A DNA stretch of 64,000 nucleotides from Nocardioides sp. W7 (lineage in GTDB: Bacteria > Actinomycetota > Actinomycetes > Propionibacteriales > Nocardioidaceae). The number at the start of each line of letters is the position of its first letter. Within the stretch, counting starts at the first letter, position 1. Below are positions 8,373 to 45,501 of this stretch, one piece after another. Made by a program: the position numbers and the translations under genes. The notes below the pieces were generated by a model. That model was not told the origin of the DNA. It searched no databases and was given only the letters and a program-made list of their open reading frames with translations. The stretch lies in assembly GCF_022919075.1 (NCBI RefSeq), contig NZ_CP095078.1, forward strand, positions 1,116,001 through 1,180,000, read 5' to 3'.

Positions 8373-8857
8373 TCCGCGACCGAGGCCGGTGCGCCGTCGG
8401 GGAACAGCGTCGCGAGGTAGATGACCACCGGCTCGGTGCCGCGGTTGGCGGCGTGGTGCACCTCGTTCGGCTGCTCGACGATCCACTGGCCGGTCCGGAC
8501 CTGCCCCGTCTGGCCGGCCTTGATGGTGCGCACGAAGGTGGCGTCCTCGGCGTCGCCCCGCATCACCCGCACCCGCCCGGTCTCGACGGTGTAGGTGAGG
8601 GTCCCGTTGGCGATCCGGGCGATCTGGGTGCCGGGGTGGTGGTGCGAGGCCAGCTTCGCGCCGGGCATCACGGTGACCCGGGTCAGGCCGAGGGTCCGGT
8701 CGGCGGCGCCGCGGACCTGGGTGGTGGCGGCGAGCGGCTCACGGGCGACGCTCACGGGAGCGGGCGCGTCGGCGGCGCCCACGGAGTAGCCGAGGCCGGC
8801 GCCGGACGCCAGCAGGGTCAGGGTGAGGGCGGGCAGCACGAGCAGACGTCGGTTCAT
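8369..8857 (-). CDS. Exported cupin-domain protein
   Basis: 162 aa with an N-terminal signal peptide (MNRRLLVLPALTLTLLASGA, residues 1-20), then a single cupin barrel. Metal-binding motif 1 appears as ASHHHPGTQIARIANG and motif 2 as EQPNEVHHAANRG. The ATG at 8857 gives the signal peptide; the open frame upstream is only antisense to recC. It is probably secreted or anchored outside. Cupins of this type have no predictable substrate. Confidence 0.8.
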   Translation of the reverse strand: MNRRLLVLPALTLTLLASGAGLGYSVGAADAPAPVSVAREPLAATTQVRGAADRTLGLTRVTVMPGAKLASHHHPGTQIARIANGTLTYTVETGRVRVMRGDAEDATFVRTIKAGQTGQVRTGQWIVEQPNEVHHAANRGTEPVVIYLATLFPDGAPASVAD

Positions 8858-36595: not shown

Positions 36596-37595
36596 CTAGC
36601 GGCACCCGCTGCACAAGCCGTCTTCGAGGTCGGGGGCTTTGCAGAAGCAACTGTTGCACGTCCCTTGCACGTCGTCGCGGCGTTGGCAGTCGCAGTCGCC
36701 GAAGCGGGGACAGAACTGGTGACGGCACGTGTCACACGGCCAGCCGACCGCCGTGCCGGCGAAGCCGCAGCGGCAAAGCTTCCCGAGTCGAGGTGCGGCG
36801 GACTTCTCTGGTGAGGCCTGGCCTCCGTGGAGCTTATCCACGCCCCAAAGGTCGGAGGTGCTGAACACGGCGTAGACACGCTTCTCGGTGGCTACCGCGC
36901 TCACGTAGAAGTCCTGTCGTCGTTTCCACTCGTCAGACCAGTGGGTCTTCCTTGTCATCGTGTCGCCCGGCTTGAGGGTGAGCAGCGGATGGTCGAGGGG
37001 CACGTCCCCGTGCTTCCAGGGGTACACCTTCAGTGAGTCGCCGCGAAGAGCAGAGTGGATGACGCGCGCGTGGGCACGGTCGATGATGACGACCGCCCCG
37101 GAGGGGAGCCTGTTCGACAAGGCAATGGCGCAGGCCGGGCCGCTCGCGGCCGACCGCGCGACTAGCGTCTTGAGGTCTTCGCCGGTGATCGGGCCGGTGC
37201 CGACGAGGTCGTCGAGCATGTCTTGGGGTACGACGAGGTCTGCTGCGATCTCTTCGCAGAGGCGCTCGACTTCGGCGTCCGGGTCGTTACGGTCGGCGAG
37301 CCAGTTGAAGGGCGTCGTCGTCGCGTTCGACCAGAATGTGTCCGACCTCGTGAAGGAGGGTGAAGTTCTCCCTTTTCGAGCCGGGGGTCGGCGAGTACAT
37401 GACGGTGTTGTGTTCGGCGAAGGACAGTCCGTCGCATAGGCCACCGGCGCCCCGCTGCGAGATGAGCGCCGGTTCGGCGACCACGGTGTAGCCGAGGCTC
37501 TCGATGCCAGTGATGGGGTGGTTCGCGACGGCGGCACGTTGCGCCGGCTCGATGGCCTCGATGAGGCGACGCGCGTGGTCGCGGCGGGTGCTCAC
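36596..37595 (-). pseudogene. ImmA/IrrE-family metallopeptidase with Cys-rich tail, frameshifted
   Basis: The GTG at 37595 overlaps the XRE stop (GTGA). Frame 1 carries the zinc motif HEVGH (in LLHEVGHILVERDDDA) and stops at 37287. Removing one base from the CCC run (GGG on the plus strand, 37310-37312) restores FNWLADRNDPDAEVERLCEE and the third-ligand region EEIAADLVVPQDM, giving a ~332-aa protein. Its C-terminus (last ~60 residues) is packed with cysteines in CxC and CxxC pairs, suggesting two or more zinc-binding knuckles. ImmA/IrrE proteases usually cleave a partner XRE repressor, here probably the preceding gene product. As read, the protease is split after the active-site helix. Confidence 0.75.
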
Positions 37596-38293
37596 GCCGG
37601 GTCCAAGAAACTGGGCAGGTTCTTGAAGTGCTCAAGGATCGCCAGGAGTGTTTGAGGTGTCGCAGAGGTGGCGTTGCGTTTGCCGGCGGTGGCAAGCAGT
37701 CGCTTGGAATGTTCAGCGAGTCGTTCGACGGGGACGTTGCTTTCCCGGGACCACTGGTCGAGGAACGCGGCGATGATCTCGTCGTCAAAAAGGACGTCGA
37801 GGGTCTGCGCTCGCTGTGTGTTGGTCGTCAGGATCGAGTCGGCGGCGACGTTGAGGACTTCGGCGACTGCGTTGATGGTTGCTGGTGGTGGATTGAGCTT
37901 GTCGCGTTCCCAGGAGAAGACATTGTTCGTGGTGACGTCCCAGCCTCGTTGGCTCAGTCGCTGTGCAAGTTCGCCGACGGTGAGGCCTGCTGACTTCCGT
38001 ATGGCAGCGAGCTGGCGACCGTTGATGAGAACTGCTGGGTCTTCGACGAGGCCGAGCATCTGAGCGATCGGGTCGTCGACTCGCACTGGTGTCGGGCTGG
38101 TTTGGTCCGTCTCGGCGTCGAGTTCGGCAAGTGCTTCTGGAAGTCCAGGTGCCCATTCGGCGATGCCGGCGATCAAGTCACGTTCGTCGTTGGTGAGGTC
38201 GGCGGACGTCGGGCGCCCGGCCACTGTGTCCAGCAGTGCTTCGACGAACGGGTCGGTCGCGGGCGACGTCTTCTCGGTGTTCGGGTCATTCAT
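37592..38293 (-). CDS. XRE-family DNA-binding protein, partner of the ImmA/IrrE protease
   Basis: 233 aa. An acidic N-terminal ~85 residues precedes a helix-turn-helix at about residues 93-150 (RQLAAIRKSAGLTVGELAQR, NNVFSWERDKLNPPPATINA). A helical C-terminal domain follows. Starts with an ATG overlapping the sigma-factor gene by 8 nt and ends in a 4-nt overlap with the protease gene. XRE-ImmA pairs act as repressor/anti-repressor or as antitoxin-like switches on mobile elements. It could control the whole operon in response to damage or phage entry. Confidence 0.82.
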   Translation of the reverse strand: MNDPNTEKTSPATDPFVEALLDTVAGRPTSADLTNDERDLIAGIAEWAPGLPEALAELDAETDQTSPTPVRVDDPIAQMLGLVEDPAVLINGRQLAAIRKSAGLTVGELAQRLSQRGWDVTTNNVFSWERDKLNPPPATINAVAEVLNVAADSILTTNTQRAQTLDVLFDDEIIAAFLDQWSRESNVPVERLAEHSKRLLATAGKRNATSATPQTLLAILEHFKNLPSFLDPA

Positions 38294-38861
38294 CCTTCGT
38301 CACCTCCTCATGACACTTCTTGATGATGGTCTTGAGCTGGTCGCCGACTCCCTGACCGGTGATGCCGAGCTCCTCGCCGATCTGCTTGTTCGTCTTTCCG
38401 TTCAGGAAGTGCCGGACGATCGTGACCTGCCGGTCGGTCAGCTTCTCGACAGCGCTGTTCAGTTTCCCCTGCCGTCGACGCGCGAGGTCCTCGGCAGCGG
38501 CGTAGTCCCCGAGCGGGTCCTGGTCGATGATGCGAGGTTCCTCGGGATCACCGGGAGGGAAGCGCTCCCGGGTCTTCTTCTCGGCGCGCACCAGGTCGAC
38601 GCACCGGTTCAGCACCGCCTTGCGGAGGTAGCCGCGCCAGCCCTCGCCCCGGTCGGTGAGCTTCTGCTCCTCGACCAGCTCGAGAAGGTGGGCGAACAGC
38701 AGGCCGATCGCCTCGGCGGCCAGGTCGGGCCGCTTGCCGTCAAAGAATCGGTTCGCAACCTTGCGCAGCCACTCGTGGTGCTGCCGGTACTGGGCGGCGA
38801 CGTCGGATGGGGTGCAGACGCGCGCATTCTCACCGGGGTCGTCGGCCAGCGCGTCGGTCAC
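38286..38861 (-). CDS. Sigma-70-like (ECF-type) factor in the ubiquitin-like operon
   Basis: 191 aa. A region-2-like segment (YRQHHEWLRKVANRFF, GWRGYLRKAVLNRCVDLVRA, residues ~25-93) and a region-4-like HTH (LTDRQVTIVRHFLNGKTNKQ, IGEELGITGQGVGDQLKTI, residues ~141-180). The linker is short, as in ECF sigma factors. Its GTG overlaps the E1-like gene by 4 nt, and its own end overlaps the XRE gene. No anti-sigma gene is visible. It may direct RNA polymerase to this operon or to island promoters. Confidence 0.75.
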   Translation of the reverse strand: MTDALADDPGENARVCTPSDVAAQYRQHHEWLRKVANRFFDGKRPDLAAEAIGLLFAHLLELVEEQKLTDRGEGWRGYLRKAVLNRCVDLVRAEKKTRERFPPGDPEEPRIIDQDPLGDYAAAEDLARRRQGKLNSAVEKLTDRQVTIVRHFLNGKTNKQIGEELGITGQGVGDQLKTIIKKCHEEVTKDE

Positions 38862-40555
38862 GCTTCAAGTATCGGCGATGCGCCCGACAGGACGGGTGAG
38901 TTTTCGGCTCGATCGGCAGAGGAATCCGCCGCACGTCCCACCTCGGTCGCCGGGAGGTCGCCGTACATCGTCCGGTACCAGCGTCGGCGTACGCCGGAGT
39001 GGCAGATGCACGTGCCGGTGGCGTCGGCGTGCGGCCGGCGCACGATCCCGGCTGGCAAGCCAGCGACGTCAAGGTCGACCCGCCGGTCAACAGTGGGAAG
39101 GTTGAGCATGTGCTTCACCAGCTCGGCGGCGATCAGGGTACCGGCGAACCAGGACACCTGTGGCGACGCAACCGCGATGACGTCGCTGTAACCGTTCGCC
39201 GCGTCGGCACCTGCGTCGCCGCCCTGGGGTCGCATCTCGGCCTCGGCGTACGCCTGACGGATCAGGTCGCTGAGCGGGGCGCTGACCAGAGCGTCACGTC
39301 GCTGCGCGGGTACGCGGCCGGCGGCGATCGCCACGTCGACGTCGGAGGCCGCCAAGACTGCTCCGTCCTGGAGGAGAGCGAGCACCCGCGGGATCGGGAT
39401 ACCGGTGACCTGGGAGTAGACGCCGGCTTGGGTCAGTGGCGGGTCGGCGCGGACGAAGTCGCAGAACGGGCAGGCGAACCCGTCGGCGAACCGCTCCCAC
39501 TGCACGTGAAGCTCAGTGCCCGACACCCCGGCAGACAAGGTCGCCTTGCTGAGCACGTCGGCGACGTCAAGCCGCCCGCTGAGAGTGTCGACGCTCGAGA
39601 TCACGACGCCGTGCCAGCCGGGTTCGTTCTTGGTGGTGTTCCAGGTCGCGACGTCGGTATCGCGAGCCTCGGCGGTCAGCCCAAGTTGCTGGAGGCGCTC
39701 GACCATCCCGGTGGATTTCTTGCCGGTCTCGCCTCCCAGCAGGGCCGGGTAACGGTACGGGTTTCGGTCGGGGTCGAAGACGTCCTTGTCGACAGCGGTC
39801 ACCTCCAGCGCTGCGGCCAACGCGGCCGCGGCCGCCGACCCGTTCAGCATTGGTGAGCACGCCGTTGCGAGCACGGCCATCGCGCTGGTGCCGACCGAAC
39901 CGACGCCGAGGAACGCGGTTCGCGCGATCTCGCACTCGGCCGCCGGGTTTGTGACCGTGAGGTCGCTGGCGTCGACCAGGCGCAGACGGTGGTCGATCAA
40001 GTTGGTCTCGATCGTCCCGATCACCTCCACGCCCGGGAAGCCCAGGTCGGCGAGGACCTTGATGAGGACCTGGCTGACCGCCAGGCTCCCTGCGGCATGA
40101 AGCCCGAGGCCGTGGACGGTGCCGGTCTCCATGACGACGGGGTGGTCGGCGAGCACGACGTTCCAGTCGCCGCCGCCGACGTAGACGTCGCAGACGGGCT
40201 CGGCGACGCCGAAACCAACCGTGATCTGTCGGGTGGCGGGCAGGTCGGTGACCGGGCGCACCGGCGTCAGCTTGTCGAGCAGGTCAGCCCACGATGCCGC
40301 CTGCCACCAGTTGTTCGGCAGGCGACGACCATCTCCGGCCGGGTCGTTGACGACGACGCCCGGCACCAGGCGGGCGATCATCGTCACGAACGCGGCGACA
40401 GCGACGCGCGCAGCATCGTCGGCGTCCGCTGCGACGGCGACGGCGACTTCGGTCTCGTCGAGCCGGCGAAGAACCTGGGTCGCCGGCTCCTGCGCTCCGC
40501 CGACGGTCTGGCTCCCGAGAAGCCGCAGACGTGGGTCCTCGACCGAGGAGTTCAC
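38858..40555 (-). CDS. E1-like ThiF-family adenylyltransferase of a bacterial ubiquitin-like system
   Basis: 565 aa. The ThiF/E1 domain begins at about residue 212: GVGSVG nucleotide loop (217-222), VDKDVFDPDRNPYRY with Asp256/Asp258, Asn265 and Arg268, and Lys279/Lys280 in a GKKSTGM segment. CPFC (362-365) and CIC (516-518) look like a split zinc site. No cysteine lies between residues 366 and 515, so a separate thioester Cys is not obvious. The N-terminal ~200 residues form an extra domain. It would adenylate the C-terminus of the UBL encoded upstream. GTG start, 4-nt overlaps on both sides. Confidence 0.88.
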   Translation of the reverse strand: MNSSVEDPRLRLLGSQTVGGAQEPATQVLRRLDETEVAVAVAADADDAARVAVAAFVTMIARLVPGVVVNDPAGDGRRLPNNWWQAASWADLLDKLTPVRPVTDLPATRQITVGFGVAEPVCDVYVGGGDWNVVLADHPVVMETGTVHGLGLHAAGSLAVSQVLIKVLADLGFPGVEVIGTIETNLIDHRLRLVDASDLTVTNPAAECEIARTAFLGVGSVGTSAMAVLATACSPMLNGSAAAAALAAALEVTAVDKDVFDPDRNPYRYPALLGGETGKKSTGMVERLQQLGLTAEARDTDVATWNTTKNEPGWHGVVISSVDTLSGRLDVADVLSKATLSAGVSGTELHVQWERFADGFACPFCDFVRADPPLTQAGVYSQVTGIPIPRVLALLQDGAVLAASDVDVAIAAGRVPAQRRDALVSAPLSDLIRQAYAEAEMRPQGGDAGADAANGYSDVIAVASPQVSWFAGTLIAAELVKHMLNLPTVDRRVDLDVAGLPAGIVRRPHADATGTCICHSGVRRRWYRTMYGDLPATEVGRAADSSADRAENSPVLSGASPILEA

Positions 40556-41064
40556 GACGACTCCTCCGCGGCGATCCAGCGGTCGCGGTCCGGTCCGGCC
40601 TTCAGTTCGACCCAGTACCCGTCGTGGAAGAGGTAGACGGCGCAGGCGTCTAGGCCGCGCCGCAGGCCCAGCCCGAAGAACGGAACGACGATCGAGATGC
40701 CGCCCTCGAAGGAAATGACCGGGTTGGCGTCGTCAGCGGCAGAGTGGAACGCATCACCGGGGTGGCTGTGGATGCGTGCCACGTACAGGTCGTCGGGGCC
40801 CAGCGCGAGGGCGAGGTCCATCTGACCTTCGCGGGGAACCTCGACGTTGACGTGGCCGTAGGTGTCGCGGTGCGCGTTCTGCCGTGGTACGACCAGCTCG
40901 AGGCCGGTGCCCTTCTTCATCATCGCGGTGCCTTCGAGGCCGAACGTTCCGCGGTCCTCGAAGAAGGTGCGCGCGTCCTGGAGCACCTTCGAGGTCAGCA
41001 CCAGTGGCGCCTCCGGGGCCGGGGGCGTCGTTGCGGGCGTGGAGGAGGTGTGGTGGTTACGCAT
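40552..41064 (-). CDS. JAB/JAMM metallopeptidase (deubiquitinase-like)
   Basis: 170 aa. The JAMM zinc signature is IHSHPGDAFHSAADD with His99, His101, Ser108 and Asp111 (or Asp112); Glu44 in FGLEGTAMM is the likely catalytic base. The motif spacing is one residue shorter than the common HxHPx6SxxD. A ~20-residue Pro/Thr-rich N-terminus precedes the domain. Expected to trim the UBL precursor and/or remove UBL from targets. It overlaps the E2-like gene by 8 nt and the E1-like gene by 4 nt. Confidence 0.87.
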   Translation of the reverse strand: MRNHHTSSTPATTPPAPEAPLVLTSKVLQDARTFFEDRGTFGLEGTAMMKKGTGLELVVPRQNAHRDTYGHVNVEVPREGQMDLALALGPDDLYVARIHSHPGDAFHSAADDANPVISFEGGISIVVPFFGLGLRRGLDACAVYLFHDGYWVELKAGPDRDRWIAAEESS

Positions 41065-41476
41065 GGATGCCTGTCTTCCGGAGCAGGGATTCGATCAGGG
41101 AGTCGAGTCGCATGCTGAAGCGGTGGGAGTCCCAGCGCTCGGTGAAGTGGCTCTCGTGGGCGTAGTAGCCGCGGGTGCCGCTGACGCACACGAACGGAAC
41201 GCCGAGGCTGGGGTGGATGCCGAGGCCGAAGCCGGGAATCCACTGCTCCACCGCCAGGATCTCGCTGGCGTCGTCGACCAGGGTCGCGTCGAACGGCTCG
41301 GAGTCGTAGCGGGAACCGTCCAGCAGCAGGTTCCACGTGCCGTCGTGACGTGTCAGGGTCATCGCGATGTTCGACCCGTCCCGGTGGAGGTCGCCGGCCA
41401 GGTCGCCCAGCTTCAGGCAGGCCCGGCCGACCTCCGCGTCGAGGAGGTCGGCCAGGACCGCCGGGTGAAGAGCCAC
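41057..41476 (-). CDS. E2-like ubiquitin-conjugating protein
   Basis: 139 aa. The second half reads like the active-site region of an E2/UBC fold: IHPSLGVPFVCVSG gives HPS (residues 88-90, in place of the usual HPN) followed seven residues later by Cys97, then a WDSHRF segment and a final amphipathic helix (RLDSLIESLLRK) like the E2 'W-p...ll..i..ll' end. The first half offers the antiparallel strands (IAMTLTRHDGTWNLLLDG). Cys97 is the probable thioester site. GTG start 6 nt after the UBL stop. Confidence 0.72.
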   Translation of the reverse strand: MALHPAVLADLLDAEVGRACLKLGDLAGDLHRDGSNIAMTLTRHDGTWNLLLDGSRYDSEPFDATLVDDASEILAVEQWIPGFGLGIHPSLGVPFVCVSGTRGYYAHESHFTERWDSHRFSMRLDSLIESLLRKTGIHA

Positions 41477-41482
41477 TGCCTG

Positions 41483-41821
41483 CTACTTGGTGTGGGTGAT
41501 GCCGGCGCCGTCGACCTGGGGCTTGCGGTTTATCAGCACCAGGACGTCGCCCTCGACGATGCGGAGGTCGCCGAAGGTCGCCGACGGGTCGAGCTCGTTG
41601 TCGGAGACCCGGGGCAGGCTCAGCGAGTAGTCGCCGGCGGTCAGCCAGCCTTTGTTGACGAACAGCTTGACCTCCTTGTCGGTGACCTCACCGACAGTGT
41701 CGGACGGCTTGACCGTCACCTTGTCGCTGTGGCCAGCCAGGGACCGGATGGTCACCTTGAAGGGGTGGTCGTCGCCGTGGCCCGGCTTGGACGTCGTGTC
41801 GCTCTCGGAGTGAGTGCTCAC
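41483..41821 (-). CDS. Ubiquitin-like β-grasp protein
   Basis: 112 aa. A disordered His/Ser/Thr-rich N-terminal ~18 residues is followed by a single β-grasp domain (residues ~20-99): FKVTIRSLAG, VTVKPSDTVGEV, a helix (DKEVKLFVNKG), then YSLSL, DLRIVEGDVLVLINR. The C-terminus reads QVDGAGITHTK, so the only glycines suitable for activation (GAG, 105-107) are covered by a 5-residue tail. First gene of the operon, GTG start with a good RBS (AAAGGAG, 8 nt upstream). Bil-type systems often have a tandem UBL; this one has a single domain. Confidence 0.8.
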   Translation of the reverse strand: MSTHSESDTTSKPGHGDDHPFKVTIRSLAGHSDKVTVKPSDTVGEVTDKEVKLFVNKGWLTAGDYSLSLPRVSDNELDPSATFGDLRIVEGDVLVLINRKPQVDGAGITHTK

Positions 41822-42313
41822 TGTGGGCTCCTTTCTGTTTGTGCCCGCTCTGCCTGATAGACGTCGTCGCGGGGGTCCGTGAAAGCCTGCTGCCGGAAAG
41901 AACTCAGCGACATGCTCGTTTGCGGCGTCTCTGGGTGACCTCGGACGATCGGGTTACCCGGCACCCCAGGACCCGTCGAACGTTGCAGTCCGTAGGACAG
42001 GTTCGGCAGACGCGCCGGTCGGCACCCGATGGCCAGCCTCCAGCGGCACTGCGAGCCCTGAAGATTCCGACTAGCGTCATTCTGAAGCCGCAAAGGGCTA
42101 CAGGGTTGGACGGGCAGAGATGTGGCAAAAGTGTGGCAGGACGCCCAGCCGCGACCGTTCGTGCTCGACGACAGCCAACGTGTTCTTGCAGGTCAGGCTC
42201 GCAGTGCAGTCCAGGATCAACGACAGTCGCTCAGCGTGCCGCGCGTCCCCTGGTGCTACTGAGTTTGCGCGCTTGCGCAGGTCAGACGGGGTGTAGGGGC
42301 CAGGAGTCCGCGT
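41822..42313. other. 492-bp gap upstream of the ubiquitin-like operon
   Basis: Contains the RBS of the UBL gene and presumably the operon promoter; no strong -35/-10 pair stands out. The tandem motif TGTGGCA (42120-42137, ATGTGGCAAAAGTGTGGCA) resembles sequence often found beside actinobacterial tyrosine integrases. The 12-mer GGGCTACAGGGT at 42095-42106 also occurs at 36532-36543 at the other side of the island. The long plus-strand open frame here encodes an Arg-rich shadow, not a gene. Confidence 0.45.
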
Positions 42314-42525
42314 TCAGTCCGCAAAGAGCCCGCAAGAACTCGGACGTCGGGCCGTGTCCTCCGCGCTTGCGACGCGCGGGGTCCGATCCTCGGCCGTGGG
42401 CCAGGTTGGCTGTAGTTCGTCAACGTGGTCGCCGCGGACGAGTGCCCCCAGCTCGCGCTGCACGGTGACGACGTCGCAGCCGGCGGCGATCAGGCCGGAG
42501 GCGCAGAAGTGACGCAAGTCGGGGA
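42314..42525 (-). pseudogene. Tyrosine-recombinase (phage integrase) C-terminal remnant
   Basis: The frame contains LPDLRHFCASGLIAAGCDVV and TVQRELG, the box II region of actinobacterial integrases. After a frameshift the next frame reads GHSSAATTLTNYSQ with the catalytic Tyr, and after a second shift the first frame resumes with WPTAEDRTPR and ends CGLFAD. At least two indels plus loss of the N-terminal part make it non-functional. It marks the island as once mobile. Confidence 0.78.
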
Positions 42526-42594
42526 GTCTGGCTGACCTCCGGGTCGAGCGCCAGCGCCCGTCGATGTCGTTGTCGTACCGAGGGCCGGCGGGTC

Positions 42595-42611
42595 TCACCC
42601 CAATTGGGTGA
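42595..42611. promoter_or_regulatory. Palindrome TCACCC-CAATT-GGGTGA
   Basis: Inverted repeat with 6-bp arms, located about 90 bp upstream of the secreted-protein gene and just outside the integrase remnant. Operator-like; the cognate regulator is unknown. Confidence 0.3.
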
Positions 42612-43919: not shown

Positions 43920-43958
43920 AGCTCGATCTGCACCTGAGTTCCCTGAGCCATCTCCGGC

Positions 43959-43986
43959 TTGACGCATGCCGATATCGGCATATGAT
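43959..43986 (+). promoter_or_regulatory. Promoter with embedded 16-bp palindrome (ArsR autoregulation)
   Basis: TTGACG (43959-43964), a 16-nt spacer and TATGAT (43981-43986). The perfect palindrome ATGCCGATATCGGCAT (43966-43981) fills the spacer and touches the -10. The ArsR ATG follows 6 nt after the -10, so the message is probably leaderless. An ideal operator for repression by the downstream ArsR protein. Confidence 0.7.
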
Positions 43987-43992
43987 CGCGCT

Positions 43993-44334
43993 ATGGCACG
44001 GGCAGCGACGACGTCGGACGTCTTCAACGCGATCGCCGAGCCGCAGCGTCGGGAGATCCTGGTACTGCTGCGGGCGGGTGAGCGGCCGGTGACCGAGCTG
44101 GCCCAGGAGCTGGGGATGACCCAGCCGGGAGCGTCCAAACACCTGCGGGTGCTCCGGGAGGTCGGGCTGGTGCGGGACCGCAAGGCGGGCAAGCAGCGCC
44201 TGTACGGCCTCGACGCCAACGGGCTGCGACCGGTCCACGAGTGGGCCGGCGGCTTCGAGCGGTTCTGGAAGGAGAGCTTCGACCGGCTGGACGCGTACGT
44301 GCAGGACCTGAAGCAGACGAAGGCAGAGGAGTAG
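43993..44334 (+). CDS. ArsR/SdpR-family winged-helix regulator
   Basis: 113 aa. The winged helix is clear: FNAIAEPQRREILVLLRAGE, VTELAQELGMTQPGASKHLR, and VLREVGLVRDRKAGKQRLYG. No metal-binding cysteines are seen, so it belongs to the SdpR-like group that regulates SRPBCC proteins. First gene of an operon with an AHSA1-type protein and a DHFR-like protein, a common actinobacterial trio. Confidence 0.9.
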   Translation: MARAATTSDVFNAIAEPQRREILVLLRAGERPVTELAQELGMTQPGASKHLRVLREVGLVRDRKAGKQRLYGLDANGLRPVHEWAGGFERFWKESFDRLDAYVQDLKQTKAEE

Positions 44335-44337
44335 CTG

Positions 44338-44844
44338 ATGAGCGCGACGGGACGAGAAGCGCAGGCGCAGTCCGCGGCGGCCGACCGCGAGGTCGTGATC
44401 ACGCGGGTCGTCGACGCCCCACGGGAGCTGGTGTTCGAGGCGTTCACCGAGGTGCGGCACCTGGCGCGGTGGTGGGGCCCGGAGGGGTTCACCACCACCA
44501 CGCGGGTGTTCGAGTTCCGGGTCGGCGGCGAGTGGGACTTCGTGATGCACGGACCGGACGGGACGGACTACCAGGAGTGGATCACCTGGTCCGAGCTCAC
44601 CCCGCCGGAGAGGATCGCACTGCTCCACGGCGAGTCCCGAGACGACCCCAACGCCTTCGAGACGGTGTTGACGTTCGCGCCCGACGGCGCGGCGACCCGG
44701 ATCGAGATGCGCACGGTGTTCCCCACCCAGGAGCTGCGCGACGAGGCGGTCGAGAAGTACCACGCGATCGAGGGCGGCCAGCAGACCCTGAGCAACCTGG
44801 CGGCGTACGTCTGCGAGATCGCTCGGTCGGGGGCGGAGGGCTGA
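44338..44844 (+). CDS. SRPBCC (AHSA1/CalC-type) protein
   Basis: 168 aa. Typical START/SRPBCC landmarks: DREVVITRVVDAPRELVFEA, FTEVRHLARWWGPEGFTTTT, RVGGEWDFVMHGPDG and a long C-terminal helix (YHAIEGGQQTLSNLAAYVCE). These proteins bind hydrophobic ligands in a helix-grip pocket. It lies 3 nt after arsR and overlaps the next gene (TGATG). Confidence 0.88.
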   Translation: MSATGREAQAQSAAADREVVITRVVDAPRELVFEAFTEVRHLARWWGPEGFTTTTRVFEFRVGGEWDFVMHGPDGTDYQEWITWSELTPPERIALLHGESRDDPNAFETVLTFAPDGAATRIEMRTVFPTQELRDEAVEKYHAIEGGQQTLSNLAAYVCEIARSGAEG

Positions 44845-45464
44845 TGGCCGGAAAGGTGTTCTTCAGCGTGTCGATGTCGCTGGACGGCTACATCGCGCCC
44901 GAGTCTCTCGGGGACCTGATGGGGCAGCAGTGGATGGAGCTGCAGCAGTGGATCTTCCCGCAGCGGTACTTCCGGGAGCGCCTGAAGCTCGGCGAGGGCG
45001 GCGAGGAGGGTCCCGACAACGACATCGTGCGCGAGACGTTCGAGCGCACCGGCGCGAGCGTGATGGGCAAGCGCATGTTCGACGCCGGCGAGCCGGCGTG
45101 GCCGGAGGAGGCGCCGTTCCACACGCCGGTCTTCGTCGTGACGCACGAGAAGCGTGACGCCTGGGAGCGGCCGGGCGGGACCACCTTCCACTTCGTCAAC
45201 GACGGCATCGAGACCGCGCTCGACCAGGCCCGCGAGGCCGCCGGCGACCGGGACGTCCGCATCGCAGGCGGCGGCGCGACGATCGTGGAGTACCTGAACG
45301 CCGGTCTGGTCGACGAGTTCTCGATCGCGCTGTCGCCCGTGCTGTTCGGCTCCGGGATCCGCCTGTTCGAGGGCGTGGACGCGGGTCGCGTGGCCCTGGA
45401 GCAGGTGCGCGCGGAGCCGACGCAGCGGGTGACCCACCTGACCTACGCCGTCCGGGAGCGGTAG
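44844..45464 (+). CDS. Dihydrofolate-reductase-family (RibD C-terminal-like) protein
   Basis: 206 aa. N-terminus KVFFSVSMSLDGYIAPE, then VMGKRMFDAG, VFVVTHEKRD, and the NADPH-binding RIAGGGATIVEYLNAGLVDE followed by ALSPVLFGSGIRLF. It matches the stand-alone RibD_C/YyaP-type reductases of unknown substrate. It has an insertion (residues ~25-60) around WMELQQWIFPQRYF. Third gene of the arsR operon. Confidence 0.88.
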   Translation: MAGKVFFSVSMSLDGYIAPESLGDLMGQQWMELQQWIFPQRYFRERLKLGEGGEEGPDNDIVRETFERTGASVMGKRMFDAGEPAWPEEAPFHTPVFVVTHEKRDAWERPGGTTFHFVNDGIETALDQAREAAGDRDVRIAGGGATIVEYLNAGLVDEFSIALSPVLFGSGIRLFEGVDAGRVALEQVRAEPTQRVTHLTYAVRER

Positions 45465-45501
45465 CTCTCTCGACCTCGGTGCTCCCCGACGCGTCGCTCA
45501 C

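Follow-up and report, generated by a model that had tools for sequence, protein, structure and literature searches.

Can a ubiquitin-like cascade run without a thioester on its E1 enzyme? The question is made testable by an operon of Nocardioides sp. W7, found within a stretch of 64,000 nucleotides (contig NZ_CP095078.1, positions 1,116,001 to 1,180,000; hereafter the window, to which all coordinates refer). Four adjoining genes encode a ubiquitin-like protein (UBL), an E2-like protein (E2), a JAB/JAMM metallopeptidase (JAB) and an E1-like enzyme (E1), a set resembling that of bacterial ISG15-like (Bil) systems. Ubiquitin-type cascades are taught as proceeding from an adenylate to an E1 thioester and from there to an E2 thioester. 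The E1 considered here has alanine in place of the catalytic cysteine, and because that nucleophile is absent we propose, as the probable course of events, that this E1 adenylates the UBL and hands it directly to C97 of the E2, which would then pass it to target amines. If this is true, the pathway skips a step of ordinary ubiquitin cascades.

A Bil-like operon

A reading of the DNA by a model, made without database searches (the sequence-only reading), had proposed four contiguous genes of a Bil-like cassette, and all four open reading frames (ORFs) were found on the minus strand where it had placed them, with an order that is conserved among relatives. They encode the UBL (41483..41821, 112 residues), the E2 (41057..41476, 139 residues), the JAB (40552..41064, 170 residues) and the E1 (38858..40555, 565 residues). 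UBL and E2 genes are separated by 6 bases, while overlaps of 8, 4 and 4 bases join E2 to JAB, JAB to E1 and E1 to a sigma-like gene that follows. Among the loci of relatives (designated L), the order UBL-E2-JAB-E1 recurs in L002, L004-L007 and L019; L003 begins inside the E2 gene, leaving its UBL side out of view. Chance can be excluded as an explanation of the cassette, because at least 154 E1, 69 E2 and 80 UBL homologues were found and the same gene order is kept.

The kinship to Bil also held, a solved Bil protein being the best structural or sequence match for each of E1, E2 and JAB. The solved references are 8tyz/8tz0 (E1-E2-Ubl complexes) and 8tyx/8tyy (BilC), which, like the operon of S. 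fredii NGR234, we take to be of type II. The window E1 is homologous to BilD over its full length, with an inactive and an active adenylation domain and a helical 'CYS' domain. The JAB matches solved BilC by sequence (8tyx, E 6.9e-8) and by PADLOC model (BilC, E 6.6e-9), and its motif of E44, H99, H101, S108 and D111 is intact in the motif alignment. In its architecture and in three of its enzymes, which are homologues of Bil proteins, the operon is Bil-like; it is filed so, and not as Bil proper, because the catalytic cysteine of the E1 is absent.

The suggestion that a single-domain, tailed UBL and an extra N-terminal domain of the E1 mark a distinct subtype had to be abandoned, since both are present in a known Bil operon, that of S. 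fredii NGR234, where the E1 shares 95.7% identity with BilD of 8tyz and the UBL has 98 residues and a polar N-terminal tail. Two features lay outside the sequence-only reading, namely the loss of the catalytic cysteine and the extension of the unit to position 36596.

Absence of the catalytic cysteine from the E1

In the HMMER alignment, Cys417 of BilD, within FYQQAICGG, faces the segment DLVRQAYAE of the E1 family, and the corresponding residue of the window E1 is A437 (codon 39245..39247, minus strand). Cys417 is the residue on which the E1~BilA intermediate reportedly forms (PMC11354881). The window E1 thus lacks one defining feature of Bil, a catalytic cysteine in the CYS domain. The homologue search gave at least 154 matches, of which 120 were listed, and together with the window these form the 121 rows counted below. 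Counting the window, alanine occupies the 437 column of 120 rows out of 121, the exception (P0048) being out of frame there; a sequencing error behind Ala437 is ruled out by this count. Inspection of seven Ala-type loci, the most distant of them (L019) at 33% identity, showed the same residue in each.

By contrast, nine of 11 E1s from outside this clade have cysteine at the 437 column or the adjoining one, among them that of an actinobacterial Bil-like operon, L027 (YQEGVCGG); of the remaining two, a Deinococcus sequence cannot be confidently aligned and the other is without the helical domain. The Ala-type E1s form one clade in a 31-row tree (support 100/99), which, given its long branches and midpoint root, does not decide between loss and an ancestral state. 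A possible second unusual E1 was noticed on a Deinococcus aetherius plasmid (L013, 2395-5200), where four genes have matching sizes (104, 145, 179 and 505 residues) and the E1 shows no clear cysteine at the BilD position, with PICSVV nearby.

Could another cysteine of the E1 have taken over? Four columns, C362, C365, C516 and C518, are nearly invariant in the 121 rows, and because they are mostly shared with Cys-type E1s they are taken, by analogy, to be a zinc site with a structural role. Among the listed matches, the 116 rows longer than 480 residues have no further cysteine column in common, and two homologues (P0062 and P0067) possess no cysteines beyond these four columns. Outside these four, cysteine is commonest in the column of window residue S157, which belongs to the inactive adenylation domain; this candidate was rejected, being cysteine in 98 of the 116 rows but serine in the window.

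All 121 rows have the residues needed for adenylation, D256, R268, K280 and D323. The GVGSVG motif (from G217) and Asp256 lie where the sequence-only reading put them, whereas the invariant lysine is K280 and not its Lys279; the JAB residues that it listed, H99, H101, S108 and D111, stand as given. Two hydroxyl residues of the E1 are also well conserved: Y436, beside A437, in 120 of 121 rows, and T375, which with Q376 is invariant in the 26-row alignment A3; the position of T375 is, however, alanine in L019.

Conserved residues of the E2 and the UBL

Counts for the E2 are based on 70 rows, the window and 69 homologues. H88 and the putative nucleophile C97 are each found in 69 rows, with one gap each, and H110, the equivalent of BilB His151, in 68. 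The window E2 has HPS and Cys97 at the places given by the sequence-only reading, but of the motif only the histidine is conserved, P89 (43/70) and S90 (56/70) being variable. A UBC fold had been expected for the 139-residue protein, and structure prediction returned one, with a Bil protein as the closest solved structure. The CEHH motif described for BilB includes Glu144 and, as its first histidine, His146 (PMC11354881). Their equivalents in the window E2 are Gly and Tyr, while L019 retains both.

Near its C-terminus the UBL has D104 and G105, invariant in the 22-row alignment A2, followed by seven residues, AGITHTK. Across 81 rows (the window and 80 homologues, a few of them truncated or frame-broken), Gly105 is kept in 79. 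Among the 80 homologues 16 stop exactly at the glycine, and 61 extend 3-19 residues further with hypervariable sequence; of 62 tails counted by a simpler pattern, 53 have Ala or Ser as their first residue. The distant L019 protein also has TDG at its end. A conserved glycine with a disposable tail is the pattern of a processed modifier and would fit the adjoining JAB. In Pfam searches with 22 members (E<=0.01), YukD was matched by 15, DUF2604 by six and ubiquitin by three. PADLOC models at E<=0.1 matched five of 22 (best 0.0026). Against the PDB, high scores to polyubiquitin are due to repeated domains, single ubiquitin chains giving E 0.0024 and weaker. Weak family matches such as these suggest a beta-grasp fold for the UBL.

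A proposed direct transfer and its alternatives

With its conserved adenylation residues the E1 would form UBL-AMP, which C97 of the E2 may attack directly, as no E1 nucleophile is seen. By analogy with Bil, the E2 would pass the UBL to target amines and the JAB would trim the tail after Gly105 and later remove the tag. The helical domain of the E1 might have been retained as a platform for the E2 or the UBL. The helix-turn-helix (HTH) regulator and M78-type peptidase encoded downstream may turn the operon on after damage, as CapH/CapP do in other defence operons, and kinship and neighbours suggest that the purpose is antiphage defence. More tentatively, and perhaps a little short of an even chance, there may exist an actinobacterial Bil-like clade without any E1 thioester, in which the E1 serves purely as a platform for adenylation and the E2, its cysteine taking the UBL straight from the acyl-adenylate, doubles as the catalytic-cysteine domain of the E1. 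If the clade conjugates, the E1 thioester would prove dispensable, and ideas on the origin of the relay, or on ways of shortening it, could be tested on such a system.

Several observations weigh against this proposal. The E1 might still have a nucleophile, either a cysteine of the zinc site or a hydroxyl, and the antiphage role rests on kinship and neighbours. NCBIfam gave no match for the window UBL, E2, JAB or E1, and PADLOC matched the JAB alone of these four. The window UBL falls below every Pfam cut-off, and the UBL profile was not significant against three BilA sequences (probability 3.4%). The E2 profile had no significant match among PDB sequences (best E 0.26, unrelated), none of 17 E2 members was matched by PADLOC models at E<=0.1, and four of the five E2 structure models have a mean predicted local distance difference test (pLDDT) score of 68-75 only. 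The PADLOC BilD model (E<=1e-6) found nothing in the genome to which the window belongs. As for the antiphage role, the E1 had no match in plasmid and phage collections, and eight stretches from viral contigs included no relative. The PADLOC results, however, say little: at E<=0.001 neither the E2 nor the UBL of S. fredii is recognised, and the BilD model, matched by 5 of 246 genomes, also matches E. coli (one of 14 control genomes), which is why weak matches to it are not specific.

Ordinary Bil chemistry could have been preserved if the thioester formed on a zinc-site cysteine (C362/C365 or C516/C518) that is moved when the helical domain closes. These are the sole nearly invariant cysteines of the E1, which has the fold of E1s that form thioesters; most Cys-type Bil E1s, however, carry them besides the catalytic cysteine, and family analogy suggests a structural role, so that we regard this explanation as improbable. 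A hydroxyl of the E1, for instance that of T375 or Y436, might instead give an oxyester intermediate ahead of the E2. Reportedly, the related Bub pathway employs a non-thioester intermediate; if so, a relay of this sort would not be the first and would be less surprising. The conservation of both residues speaks for such a nucleophile, but T375 lies off the Cys417 position, the E2 retains its conserved cysteine, and the alternative is made less likely by the alanine at the T375 position of the Ala-type L019 E1; we give it very little credence.

A further possibility is that conjugation was lost and the E1 only adenylates the UBL, the E2-like protein being an adaptor or acting on another acceptor. 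There is a precedent in enzymes of the MoeB/ThiF kind, which adenylate their UBL (MoeB-MoaD, ThiF-ThiS) and have no relay from E1 to E2. The replacement of the BilB Glu144 and His146 equivalents by Gly and Tyr agrees with such a loss; the near-invariance of C97 and H110 does not, and conjugation is what one would expect of an intact JAB motif beside a UBL whose tail can be removed, so the loss seems improbable. Independently of these three alternatives, direct transfer to C97 may hold while the function of the operon is a general response to DNA damage or stress and not defence against phages. Its sigma-like, HTH and M78 genes would suit that function, and for Bub operons, regulable by CapW or CapH+CapP, protection against phages is stated not to have been shown (PMC13373217). 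Kinship to Bil, the IetAS and AbiEii neighbours in two relatives and a sporadic, transferable distribution point instead to defence, and we consider a stress role rather unlikely. Direct transfer from the E1 adenylate to E2 C97 is retained as the preferred reading. Among the titles and abstracts listed in literature searches none concerned a cysteine-less Bil E1, though the primary Bil and Bub papers lay outside this search and absence from print cannot be claimed.

Regulatory genes and limits of the unit

The operon continues past the E1 gene with sigma-like, HTH and M78 peptidase genes, down to 36596, all on the minus strand. The sigma-70/ECF-like protein (38286..38861, 191 residues) matches NCBIfam TIGR02937 above cut-off (1.1e-15); homologues follow the E1 in L002, L003, L004 and L006, a sigma-like gene is present in L007, and none was detected in L005 or L019. 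The HTH regulator (37592..38293, 233 residues) has Pfam HTH_31 and HTH_3 above cut-off and may play a CapH-like role, though its match to PADLOC capH is weak (E 0.021) and the RmrA and HTH_VI models score higher. The CapP-like M78/IrrE-family peptidase gene (36596..37595) is split into halves in overlapping frames (37287-37595 and 36596-37537), both matched by PADLOC capP; Pfam Peptidase_M78 is below cut-off on the first half and above it in the L005 homologue. The L002 peptidase is an uninterrupted ORF of 332 residues, whereas the window frame breaks near 37301-37310, through mutation or sequencing error, and regulation may be altered in W7. Its C-terminal part is rich in CxxC-like pairs.

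Homologues of the HTH protein and peptidase are adjacent after the E1 in all six of L002-L007; among the called genes of L019 none was detected. The two resemble the CapH/CapP pair, in which CapP is reported to be activated by single-stranded DNA and to cleave CapH (PMC13373217).

The window aligns with the Allobranchiibius contig L002 over 36596-42084 (86.1% DNA identity, 5514 bases), and the 21.7-kb L002 locus gave no other match longer than 150 bases at E<=1e-10. Because the DNA match is confined to this interval, the cassette is taken as a seven-gene transferable unit with its upstream region (36596..42084, minus strand). Just upstream of the UBL gene lies a 31-codon ORF (41818..41913, minus strand; MSLSSFRQQAFTDPRDDVYQAERAQTERSPQ) whose stop overlaps the UBL start; an L002 counterpart of equal length at 8646 shares 26 of 31 residues, and the ORF might be a leader peptide or a coupled microprotein.

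Beyond the unit, an ORF at 42314-42598 on the minus strand, containing LRHFCASGLIAAGCDVVTVQRELG, resembles, by eye, a tyrosine recombinase at its C-terminal end, and Pfam gave no match. At the DNA level a block at 43952-45491 (ArsR/AHSA1) is roughly 89% identical to sequence of three congeners (G025, G088 and G051), the surrounding sequence being unmatched. When the right flank was tried as an empty-site marker, matches among relatives fell only in this block. Promoter and terminator scans stayed at chance level, and Rfam, tRNA and repeat scans gave nothing informative.

Distribution and neighbourhood

The distribution of the operon is sporadic. Searches of overlapping genome samples, W7 included, detected it in 1 of 147 genomes from the genus (that of W7), 1 of 396 from the phylum, 2 of 293 from the order and 2 of 394 from the class; as 3-5 candidates were scored per genome for phylum, order and class, at most 9 for the genus and at most 39 for the family of genome G592, these tallies may be low. 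One scan of representative genomes found six loci. The hosts named for the homologues and for these loci are actinobacteria. The whole unit had no match in the plasmid collection.

PADLOC models matched five of eight chosen neighbour proteins of relatives: IetA and IetS genes (10003-13924 of L019) adjoin the L019 operon, AbiEii lies near that of L003, and L006 and L007 contain a fragmentary type III restriction enzyme and an NYN nuclease, respectively. Transposases occur near the operons of L004-L006.

Comparison with known systems

CapH/CapP pairs of CBASS (cyclic-oligonucleotide-based antiphage signalling systems) and other defence operons likewise consist of an HTH protein and an M78-type peptidase; the window pair differs in its place at the end of the operon, behind the sigma-like gene, and in its weak capH match. 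MoeB-MoaD, ThiF-ThiS, UBA4, UBA5 and ATG7 resemble the window E1 in adenylating without a separate catalytic cysteine half-domain, but the window E1 keeps the helical domain, devoid of a conserved cysteine, and is accompanied by a separate E2. The noncanonical E1s UBA4 (Cys202) and ATG7 (Cys507) still use a cysteine (PMC12355090).

Bub operons are likewise ubiquitination-like; none of the PDB matches listed bears the label Bub. Of 544 Bub operons, 219 stand beside CapW or CapH+CapP (PMC13373217). The operons that Iyer and colleagues (2006) placed in class 6d also combine Ub-like, JAB, E1-like and E2-like genes, and their E2 has an absolutely conserved histidine after the cysteine, as the window E2 has; class 6d differs in an additional alpha-helical protein and in having no classical E2 histidine before the cysteine (the window has H88 before and H110 after C97), and actinobacteria are not among the organisms listed for it (PMC1779556). 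Multiubiquitin and related operons of Bradyrhizobium and Rhizobium leguminosarum (L014-L016) have the same gene order, a UBL-type gene being followed by those for the E2 ('putative metal-binding protein'), the JAB and an E1 of ThiF type; however, two of the three genes at the UBL position are annotated multiubiquitin, and the E1s keep a cysteine beside the site.

The Bil operon of S. fredii NGR234 agrees with the window in gene order, in an E1 of two adenylation domains and a helical domain, in the JAMM peptidase, in the cysteine and histidine of the E2 (BilB Cys138 and His151; window C97 and H110) and in a short UBL with an N-terminal tail and a C-terminal glycine. It differs in that the catalytic Cys417 of BilD is Ala437 in the window E1, that its E2 is longer (205 against 139 residues, the window protein lacking both the C-terminal extension and an insert that spans 27 columns of the alignment), that the window UBL has DG plus a seven-residue tail, and that the window operon carries sigma, HTH and M78 genes. 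Bil-type systems are thereby widened in actinobacteria, with a self-contained regulatory tail of sigma-like, HTH and peptidase genes added.

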